DNA of 35,474 bases from Candidatus Bathyarchaeota archaeon (GTDB taxonomy: Archaea; Thermoproteota; Bathyarchaeia; Bathyarchaeales; Bathycorpusculaceae), in NCBI GenBank assembly GCA_030607735.1, contig JAUWJK010000006.1, positions 1-35,474 on the forward strand, given 5' to 3'. The translations under genes and the position numbers were made by a program. Every line of letters starts with the position of its first letter. Position 1 is the first letter of the stretch. Below, one piece after another: positions 31,276 through 34,365 of this stretch. Under the pieces are notes generated by a model, which did no database searches, had not been told where the DNA came from, and saw only the letters and a program-made list of their open reading frames with translations.

Positions 31276-32610
31276 CTACTTAAAACCTGTCGGGAACCCT
31301 TTACCCATAAAAGGTAGTTTCTTTTTTCGTTTGAAGCTCTTCAACATTTTTCTCATCATCACATATTGTTTCAAAAGTTCTTTAACTTCCTTTTCAGTTG
31401 TTCCAGAACCTCGTGCTACACGTCTTACTCTCGAAGAATTCAGAAGTTTAGGATTCTCTTTCTCTTCAACACGCATTGATTGGATAATAACACGCCACTT
31501 CTCAAGTCGACCTTCAGCAGTGTTTAACAGGTCATCTGGTACATTATAGGACATACCGGGTAACATTTTGAAGATTTTCTTAAAAGTACCCATACCTTTT
31601 ACAGCTTCAAATTGTTCGTACATATCAGTAAGTGTAAATTTACCACTTAAGATTGCTTTCACTTTTTTCTTAGGAACTTTGATTTCAGCTTCCCGAACCT
31701 TTTCTAGGAGTGTCTCCAAATCCCCCATTCCTAAAAGTCTACCGACAAATCTAGCTGGAACAAAAGGCTCTAAATCTTCAATTTTTTCACCAGTACCAAC
31801 AAATTTTATAGGAGCCCCCGTTGCAGCCACTGCGGAAAGTGCGCCTCCCCCTCTTGCTGATCCATCCAATTTTGTAACTATAATGGCGCCAATAGGTGTC
31901 GTTTCGTGGAATTTTTTTGCTTGAAGAAGAGCTTGTTGACCAATAGTACCATCAATTACCATAATTACCTCATCAGGTTTGATTTTCTTTTCAAGTTTTT
32001 TCATCTCCTTGATAAGATCATGTTCTTCTTTGTGCCTTCCTGCAGTATCAACGATTACAAGATCCTTTTCAGCAAATATTTTTAGACCTTTAAAAACTAC
32101 TTTTAAAGGATCTTTGATAGTTAAATCCCCATAAACAGGAATGTTTATTCGTTTTGCTAACTGTTTTAGTTGTGCAAATGCACCTGGACGATAAGTATCA
32201 GCACAGATTAATGCTGGTTGTAAACCCTTTTTAAGAAAATAACGAGCAAGTTTTGACGCTACTGTAGTTTTTCCAGATCCCTGTATTCCAACTAACATTA
32301 AGATTTTCCTTTTTCCAGGTTCTAACTTAATTGAAACAGGTTTATCACCTACAAAACGTGTTAACTCTTCATAAACAACCTTTATCACATGTTCCCGTCT
32401 TGCGATGCCAGGTGGAACTTTTTCTTTCAGGGCGCGTTCTTCTATTCGTTTAGATATCTCTAAAACAAGTTTAACATTTACATCTGCTTGAAGAAGAGCT
32501 CTCTGTATATCTCGCACAAGTTCTTTGACTGTAGCCTCGTCTACAACTGAAGCCCCAAAAACTTTTTTTAAAGCTCCATAAAGAGAGGTGCCCAATCGAT
32601 CTAAAACCAT
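31276..32610 (-). CDS. srp54: signal recognition particle GTPase SRP54
   Basis: The protein binds SRP RNA and signal sequences and, with FtsY, targets nascent proteins to the membrane. The 444-residue protein has the helical N domain (1-85). The G domain has GIQGSGKTT at 108-116, DTAGRH and TKLDGSARGGG. The M domain (about 300-444) contains the RNA-binding SSRVRRVARGSG and a basic terminus. The ATG at 32610 has a TATA-like TATTTAAATC further upstream. Pus10 follows 10 bp later. Confidence 0.96.
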   Translation of the reverse strand: MVLDRLGTSLYGALKKVFGASVVDEATVKELVRDIQRALLQADVNVKLVLEISKRIEERALKEKVPPGIARREHVIKVVYEELTRFVGDKPVSIKLEPGKRKILMLVGIQGSGKTTVASKLARYFLKKGLQPALICADTYRPGAFAQLKQLAKRINIPVYGDLTIKDPLKVVFKGLKIFAEKDLVIVDTAGRHKEEHDLIKEMKKLEKKIKPDEVIMVIDGTIGQQALLQAKKFHETTPIGAIIVTKLDGSARGGGALSAVAATGAPIKFVGTGEKIEDLEPFVPARFVGRLLGMGDLETLLEKVREAEIKVPKKKVKAILSGKFTLTDMYEQFEAVKGMGTFKKIFKMLPGMSYNVPDDLLNTAEGRLEKWRVIIQSMRVEEKENPKLLNSSRVRRVARGSGTTEKEVKELLKQYVMMRKMLKSFKRKKKLPFMGKGFPTGFK

Positions 32611-32719
32611 CTATGCTCGCCAACTTTAGAACAACTTAAGGGGATTTAAATACATATTGCACCTAAAAAAAGGGTATAAACTCACAGATTAATGCAATCA
32701 TATTCGGTGATAATTAATA

Positions 32720-32782
32720 AAGCCTCAGTCCCCATTAAGATATCTTCACAAAATCAGACGGCTCTTCATGCATCATCGGCTT
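32720..32782 (-). ncRNA. box C/D guide sRNA
   Basis: The minus strand reads, in order: stem AAGCC, box C ATGATGC (one base off RTGATGA), a 12-base guide, D' box CTGA (32754-32757), 4 T, C' box GTGAAGA (32743-32749, one base off), a 14-base guide, D box CTGA (32725-32728), and stem GGCTT. The terminal stem AAGCC/GGCTT is perfect and all four boxes are correctly ordered and spaced. Archaeal sRNAs of this type bind L7Ae, Nop5 and fibrillarin and direct 2'-O-methylation. The D' guide contains GAAGAGCCG, complementary to CGGCTCTTC, which resembles a conserved stretch of 23S rRNA near the peptidyl transferase centre. That target is from memory. Confidence 0.82.
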
Positions 32783-32815
32783 CATTATTAATTGTCAGAT
32801 AACATAGAAATAAAG

Positions 32816-32823
32816 CTTTAAAG
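32816..32823 (-). promoter_or_regulatory. TATA-like element of the C/D sRNA
   Basis: CTTTAAAG lies about 35 bp upstream of the sRNA 5' stem, inside the 15 bp after the aIF5A stop region. This is consistent with independent transcription rather than processing from the aIF5A mRNA. Confidence 0.35.
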
Positions 32824-32837
32824 AATAAGAAAAAGAG

Positions 32838-33230
32838 CTACTTTACTCTAGTTATTTTTATTCTGCCCAATATTTCCCAATATTCAACTTCAACGCCTAC
32901 AACAAGCTTAGCTTTCATAGCCTCATCTTCAGGAAAAGGAGCATCAATATACGCATATGATTCAAGATCCATTAATTGGACGCCGTTTGGATTTACTGTA
33001 AATACTTGTGCCGGTTTTTTATCAACAATTGGAACCTCGGCTTTAGCACTAACTGGTTTAACTATACTTCTTTTAACATCATCAAAGGTCCCAATAGCAA
33101 CAATTCTGCATTTTGCAGAACCATGTTTCCCAGGCTTTGATTTAGTAATATCAACTATACGACAAGGAATATCATCTATAATTATATAACCGCCAACTCG
33201 TAAAGTTCCCACATCAACTGGTTTGCTCAT
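32838..33230 (-). CDS. translation initiation factor aIF5A
   Basis: This factor promotes peptide-bond formation at difficult sequences. It carries hypusine or deoxyhypusine on Lys35 in SKPGKHGSAK. The 130-residue protein has the SH3-like N domain with that loop, and an OB-fold C domain (about 70-130). The ATG at 33230 has GGTGAT close before it and a TATTTAG promoter element about 30 bp upstream. The box C/D sRNA is encoded directly downstream on the same strand. Confidence 0.95.
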   Translation of the reverse strand: MSKPVDVGTLRVGGYIIIDDIPCRIVDITKSKPGKHGSAKCRIVAIGTFDDVKRSIVKPVSAKAEVPIVDKKPAQVFTVNPNGVQLMDLESYAYIDAPFPEDEAMKAKLVVGVEVEYWEILGRIKITRVK

Positions 33231-33469: not shown

Positions 33470-34365
33470 GTGTCTATTATAGTAAATAGACGCACTATCC
33501 GCCAAGATTTCATTTCTGGATATAAAAGCGTTGATGAAGTTACAGAAGCATATGAAGAATGGTTTAAACAAATTTTCTACATACTTTTGTATAGATTCAA
33601 TAGAACGATAGGTAAATACGAATATTCTTATTTTCGGGGAACAAAAAGAGGCGATCTTAAATATAGTTACGTAATTAGCAGAAAATTTGATGTTTTAAAA
33701 AAATTTAGCAAGAAGCTAGTTTTCTTTTCTAAAAAAGCTCACGGTCTTGTGAAAGGAAGTGCTTTATTATTTACACTAGAGTATAACGCAAACAAGATTA
33801 GAAGGTCAGAAGCTTGGCAAAATATTGGAGTAGATTTTAATCGATTTTTAAGTAGGCTAAAACACAAATACGGAAAGATCAGTATTATTCGTGTTTGGGA
33901 AGCTCACGAGTCAGGTTATCCTCATTGTCATGTTTTAGTTATTTTCCATAATCACACCTTTGACGGAAAAAGGATGTGGAATAAAAGAAAAAACAAGTTT
34001 GTTAATCGTGTTTTTGGGAATACGTTTCTTAGTCTAAAAAGTAAGTGGAAACATGGATTTAGCGATTTAGAGTTAGTTGATAGTTATCATGGGGTGTGCG
34101 ATATCTTTCTAAGTATTTACAAAAAAGCACTTCTTACGCTGAAACAGGTTCTAAAGGTATCAAAACCTTAGCTATGTGTTGGTCGTTTAGTAAACGATCA
34201 TTTTCTTATTCAGGAGACCTGTTTCATGACGAGATCGTAATACATACTAATTCAACAAATAATTCAGAGAAAGAATCCTCTGAAATAAGAAAAATATGTG
34301 TTGGCATGGACTTATACAACAAAAAAATTAATTTTCCAAATAATATTAAGTGGATACAAAATTAG
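33470..34365 (+). pseudogene. rep: HUH-type rolling-circle Rep protein, frameshifted
   Basis: The first frame (33470-34171, GTG start) encodes a basic protein with motif 1 LLFTLEYN (99-106) and the metal-binding HUH motif GYPHCHVLV (149-157). Downstream it ends in nonsense. The shifted frame from about 34096 to 34365 supplies RYLSKYLQK, the expected Y-x3-Y catalytic-tyrosine motif 3, and ends at TAG 34363. Removing one TG from GTGTG at 34094-34098 joins the frames as YHGVRYLSKYLQK. Joined length would be about 297 residues, plausible for an archaeal plasmid or virus Rep. Either the gene is recently dead or the assembly has a 2-base error. A programmed shift is less likely since no slippery heptamer fits. 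Confidence 0.78.
34342..34361 (+). repeat. 20-bp direct repeat, copy 1
   Basis: AATATTAAGTGGATACAAAA at the very 3' end of the rep frame (encoding NIKWIQ) recurs exactly at 34788-34807. The two copies bracket the L35Ae gene. Confidence 0.8.

Follow-up and report, generated by a model that had tools for sequence, protein, structure and literature searches.

What is encoded in the short stretch between the aIF5A and SRP54 genes of this Bathyarchaeia MAG, and, if it is a guide RNA, which nucleotide would it mark? The original prediction placed here a box C/D sRNA with two guides, and we have followed it up in the window (the whole 35,474-nucleotide stretch of DNA that was analysed), in the source genome (130 contigs, with the 16S recovered in pieces) and in related archaea. 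Our preferred reading, to which sequence comparison leads us to give a probability of about 0.9, is a monocistronic box C/D sRNA with its own promoter, whose D' guide would direct fibrillarin to 2'-O-methylate the 23S rRNA nucleotide equivalent to E. coli C2510. A limited literature search turned up nothing published on the box C/D sRNAs of Bathyarchaeia.

The sRNA gene, its promoter and its conservation

A complete archaeal box C/D sRNA lies on the minus strand at window positions 32786-32716, with C, D', C' and D boxes and a terminal stem of 9 bp, which gives a predicted RNA length of about 71 nt. The four boxes were called correctly from the outset; the perfect 5-bp terminal stem described with them was too short. 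The features are listed below in the direction of transcription, with counts over 58 homologues from relatives that are not independent samples.

32838-33230, minus strand: aIF5A gene, upstream neighbour (Pfam IF5A-like_N); synteny conserved
32809-32819, minus strand: TATA-like element AAAGCTTTATT; predicted start near 32786-32790
32778-32786, minus strand: terminal stem, 5' strand AATGAAGCC; pairs with 32716-32724, and the pairs covary in relatives
32777, minus strand: unpaired G between the 5' stem strand and the C box
32770-32776, minus strand: box C, ATGATGC; ATGATG in 58/58 homologues
32758-32769, minus strand: D' spacer ATGAAGAGCCGT; 12 nt in 58/58 homologues, a count that takes in loci fetched by a pattern allowing only 11-13 nt
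32767-32759, minus strand: D' guide core GAAGAGCCG; 9 bp to 23S L042:2565-2573
32754-32757, minus strand: box D', CTGA; CTGA in 50/58 and CGGA in 8/58 homologues
between the D' and C' boxes, minus strand: loop TTTT
32743-32749, minus strand: box C', GTGAAGA; GTGAAGA in 37/58 homologues, other RTGANGA-like forms in the remainder
32729-32742, minus strand: D spacer TATCTTAATGGGGA, containing a TGGGG motif of uncertain target; 9-31 nt in relatives
32725-32728, minus strand: box D, CTGA; CTGA in 57/58 homologues
32716-32724, minus strand: terminal stem, 3' strand GGCTTTATT
31276-32610, minus strand: SRP54 gene, downstream neighbour (Pfam SRP54); synteny conserved

The C box agrees with RUGAUGA at six of seven positions, the final base being C, not A, at a position outside the k-turn core. 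When the box layout was searched as R-TGATG-N, 9-15 nt, CTGA, 3-9 nt, RTGANGA, 8-18 nt, CTGA, it proved unique in the window and appeared in none of 300 dinucleotide-preserving shuffles, whether or not a stem was demanded; folding gives a 10-bp closing stem (z = -2.3). An Rfam 15 scan of the window returned no family above threshold at the sRNA position, where the best match, the plant C/D family snoR77Y (E 0.2), was not accepted as membership. Pfam identified both neighbours, so the placement between aIF5A and SRP54 holds, and a Pus10 gene (Pfam) lies downstream, beyond SRP54. Adjoining aIF5A is a REP_ORF2-G2P replication-associated protein (Pfam, E 4.5e-9; window 33470-34171, plus strand, possibly on into 34096-34365). 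This ORF2/G2P-type Rep frame seems broken into a second ORF and holds a HUH-like motif, PHCHVLV; it resembles a vestige of an integrated rolling-circle element.

Alignment of the 80 bases upstream of the 58 copies brought out a TATA-like (A)AAG[CT]TTAT element; in about 54 of the homologues the first base of its [CT]TTAT lies 36-39 bases upstream of the C box. The looser form [CT]TTA[TA] occurs at -50 to -28 in 55 of 58 copies, against a mean of 17 and a maximum of 30 in shuffles. At this spacing transcription is predicted to begin at the base of the terminal stem, so that the sRNA gene is probably its own transcription unit.

A DNA search with a 161-base query found the region in 31 of 61 relatives, and a covariance model trained on 32 homologues found the sRNA in 61 of 70 genomes of the same family and in nine more of the class, nearly always as a single copy. 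The nine family genomes in which the model detected no copy may reflect MAG incompleteness or loss. Among 398 genomes of the phylum, 32 contain the core pattern and none contains a reversed control. When the genome collection was scanned with a pattern, matches came from Bathyarchaeota, Bathycorpusculum and MCG-1 MAGs, and also from four Njordarchaeota/Asgard records, Nitrosocaldus and Methanomethylicia; scattered bacterial matches, in contexts that are not C/D, were set aside as chance. The terminal stem covaries, with three pairs altered on both sides among relatives; the covariation score was exceeded by one of 500 shuffles and was lost when the partner strand was slid. Almost every copy has retained at least one of its neighbours, aIF5A upstream or SRP54 downstream. 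In three distant class members aIF5A lies within about 1 kb of the sRNA, the Nitrosocaldus sRNA is 1.4 kb upstream of SRP54, and several relatives (e.g. L052) have other genes between the sRNA and SRP54.

Not every copy is intact. The homologue L038 (G014) has broken C and D' boxes and looks degenerate, while L228 (G023) and L229 (G025) keep the gene with drifted D' guides; in L229 the D guide AAACCCAGC is nevertheless intact, so either side can decay. A second, weak model match in G004 (L230, C24:134406-134463, E 3e-4) has C, D' and D-like boxes with a different guide, and is possibly a paralogue or chance.

The D' guide and its probable 23S target

The guide core GAAGAGCCG is nearly invariant among the 58 homologues, as is the exact 12-nt spacing from C to D'. 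The 23S rRNA of the same genome contains CGGCUCUUC at L042:2565-2573, which forms 9 bp with the D' guide, in keeping with the predicted complementarity to 23S rRNA near the peptidyl transferase centre (PTC). The fifth-base rule leads to L042:2568, which alignment with E. coli rrlB puts on C2510, the very base that the original prediction had proposed as the approximate site. The target sequence is unchanged in the related 23S sequences that were read. Shuffled guides reach at least 9 bp in rRNA in 11 of 400 cases, so that the 9-bp match taken by itself is only moderately significant, and the claim of a target rests instead on the conservation of guide, spacing and target together. No better partner than the 23S site was found in the 35 tRNAs of the genome, where the best runs were of 6. 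Several apparent 16S targets on contig C48, in a scan that covered the recovered 16S pieces, lay on the antisense strand and were dropped.

Two of the proteins that the reading calls for are encoded in the same genome, where the fibrillarin (E 3e-91) and Nop5 (E 2e-72) genes stand side by side on contig C107. Architecture, conservation across the class, stem covariation, the conserved promoter and these two genes all speak for the predicted box C/D identity, and the sRNA most likely directs methylation at the nucleotide equivalent to E. coli C2510. We infer expression, RNP assembly and the methylation itself as follows. The monocistronic gene would be transcribed from its own promoter, and its RNA would fold into a C/D k-turn closed by the terminal stem and a C'/D' k-loop. 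The folded sRNA would bind L7Ae, Nop5 and fibrillarin, the D' guide would anneal to CGGCUCUUC in 23S helix 90, and fibrillarin would 2'-O-methylate the C2510 equivalent, beside the peptidyl transferase centre.

Two irregularities turned up in the 23S genes of relatives. In L160/L183 (G001:C111:17355-17702) a segment of 23S domain V is partly duplicated in tandem, by assembly error or real insertion. The 23S of L242 (G123:C16) reads GCTGGGGTT, against GCTGGGTTT in all other relatives; the change falls on a PTC base that is nearly universal (E. coli U2584 in the alignment) and may be a sequencing error.

The D side and rival readings

The spacer between C' and D is 14 nt in this genome and 9-31 nt across the family, with a sequence that depends on the clade. 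No convincing target for it was found in the genome's own 23S, the recovered 16S pieces or the 35 tRNAs, and the original prediction could name none either; the scan of rRNA and tRNA that it proposed gave a result for the D' guide (9 bp in 23S) and nothing convincing for the D guide. An 8-bp, wobble-containing match to 23S at L042:195 was rejected, its pairing motif not being conserved in relatives. A convincing D-side target appears in one clade only. Seven copies (L021, L027, L030, L035, L037, L143 and L229) carry the D guide AAACCCAGC (AAACTCAGC in L030), whose complement lies in the peptidyl transferase loop at E. coli 2578-2587; the common form pairs over 10 bp, 0 of 400 shuffles were as good, and the fifth-base rule names G2581. 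The D sides of other clades gave no identifiable rRNA target, in tests where the rRNA of this genome stood in for that of some relatives. In five further copies (L019, L023, L025, L031 and L153) the D spacer has TGAGGAGAG, which four of them show as CTGAGGAGAG, immediately ahead of CTGAGG, an arrangement that resembles a D-box duplication with a small hairpin; the CTGAGGAGAG class likewise had no target in the proxy rRNA.

The TGGGG motif is shared more widely, occurring in the D spacer of 33 of the 58 copies. A weak 7-bp match joins the D spacer of this genome to UCCCCAU at 23S L042:2531-2537 (E. coli 2473-2479, the H89 loop), 28 nt upstream of the D' target, with a local shuffle p of about 0.03; the possible pairing is 6-8 bp among the TGGGG copies, and in the relative G004 it reaches 8 bp (CGAUGGGG, p 0.0075). 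These matches raise the reading of a true dual guide, in which the D guide UAUCUUAAUGGGGA also methylates the genome's own rRNA, for example at the final C of the H89-loop UCCCC (E. coli 2477). Precedents for such pairs are at hand: as cited in PMC7994747, Lui et al. (2018) describe most rRNA-targeting sRNAs of Pyrobaculum as dual, with targets within 100 nt, and Table 3 of PMC4644070 gives Thermoproteus tenax sR50 a similar pair of alignment sites. The motif, however, lies anywhere from 0 to 16 nt from box D, so no fixed fifth-base target explains it, the rule giving a different nucleotide, or none, in each relative; longer D-side matches also exist elsewhere in 23S. We therefore consider a true dual guide unlikely, and the predicted pair of guides is not supported as two methylation guides: the D side has no convincing target in this genome and varies among relatives in length and sequence. 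Here it probably does not guide methylation, and in the majority clade the TGGGG motif may, tentatively, make an accessory contact with UCCCCAU of the H89 loop.

The same contacts could be taken to mean that the RNA is mainly an rRNA folding chaperone, its two contacts holding H89, H90 and the PTC loop, with methylation secondary. Good or suggestive D targets do fall in the same 23S region, at 2578-2587 in one clade and, more weakly, at 2473-2479 in another, and archaeal C/D sRNAs have been suggested to act in this way (PMC4644070). Yet the D sides of several clades have no match in the region, and the D' spacing stays at the 12 nt that methylation requires, which makes a chiefly chaperone role quite improbable. 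That the element is a leader or trailer structure of aIF5A or SRP54, such as an L7Ae-binding k-turn, instead of a free sRNA would suit its same-strand position between these genes and the regulation of mRNAs by L7Ae through k-turns reported in PMC5539422, but is very hard to credit given the unrelated gene before SRP54 in several relatives (L052), the sRNA's own promoter and the conserved guide complementarity that it would leave unexplained.

Archaeal counterparts and the eukaryotic U49/SNORD49 site

In anatomy and target the Bathyarchaeial element is an archaeal box C/D sRNA. Like the sR RNAs of Pyrococcus, Sulfolobus and Pyrobaculum, it has C, D', C' and D boxes, a k-turn with a terminal stem, a 12-nt D' spacer and a fifth-base target in 23S domain V, in a genome with fibrillarin and Nop5. 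Unlike them, its C'-D spacer ranges over 9-31 nt instead of staying close to 12, conservation is confined to one guide, and the family is single-copy with fixed gene neighbours and its own promoter. PTC helices 90-93 are described as a hotspot by Dennis et al. (2015, PMC4644070), who also suggest that such sRNAs may act as chaperones. A close parallel is T. tenax sR50, a single sRNA for which Table 3 of that paper predicts targets at alignment positions 2783 and 2753; these correspond to about E. coli 2509 and 2479 by our own conversion from the offsets quoted there. They lie close to the two sites considered for the Bathyarchaeial sRNA, with a different D/D' assignment and different exact nucleotides.

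Candidate guides to the C2510 equivalent with full C/D anatomy also occur in Nitrosocaldus, in Methanomethylicia and in the four Njordarchaeota/Asgard records. The Asgard (Njordarchaeota-like) copies, L104:7517, L114:982(-), L137:6023 and L151:5481(-), have symmetric 12/12-nt spacers and the same D' guide; their D guides differ among the four, with CGCCACTCCAGT in two.

Human C4456 is, we presume from the LSU alignment, the equivalent of E. coli C2510. Its modified form, Cm4456 (formerly Cm4426), is guided by SNORD49A/B (PMC9941101) and placed in H90 of the PTC (PMC12288042). At the equivalent site the guide is AtU49 in Arabidopsis (Cm2869; PMC3511168) and PFS9 in Plasmodium, and none is listed for yeast (PMC3511168, PMC2656528). 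The likeness of the Bathyarchaeial sRNA to U49/SNORD49 is one of target position alone, the same nucleotide in H90 of the PTC, and convergence is possible; the U49 families gave no Rfam match in the window scan at E up to 1. Given the same D' guide in the Asgard records, the C2510-equivalent site may be old. A bolder proposal, which we hold to be doubtful, is that the guide is ancestral: the Bathyarchaeia, Nitrosocaldus, Methanomethylicia and Njordarchaeota guides and U49/SNORD49 would all descend from one pre-eukaryotic sRNA, and the Bathyarchaeial D side would have lost methylation while still contacting the peptidyl transferase region. Hoeppner and Poole (2012, PMC3511168) could match an archaeal modification by position to only three ancestral eukaryotic snoRNAs, and a further candidate thus makes the question of shared ancestry testable.

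The gene is a new, well-supported example of an archaeal box C/D sRNA that no Rfam family covers, and its fixed synteny, promoter and near-invariant guide make it a marker sRNA. The 23S site that it indicates falls on the U49/SNORD49 site of human, plant and malaria parasite, which the candidate Asgard guides also target. Finally, turnover on the D side beside a frozen D' guide offers a clean natural series of how dual guides gain and lose their targets.
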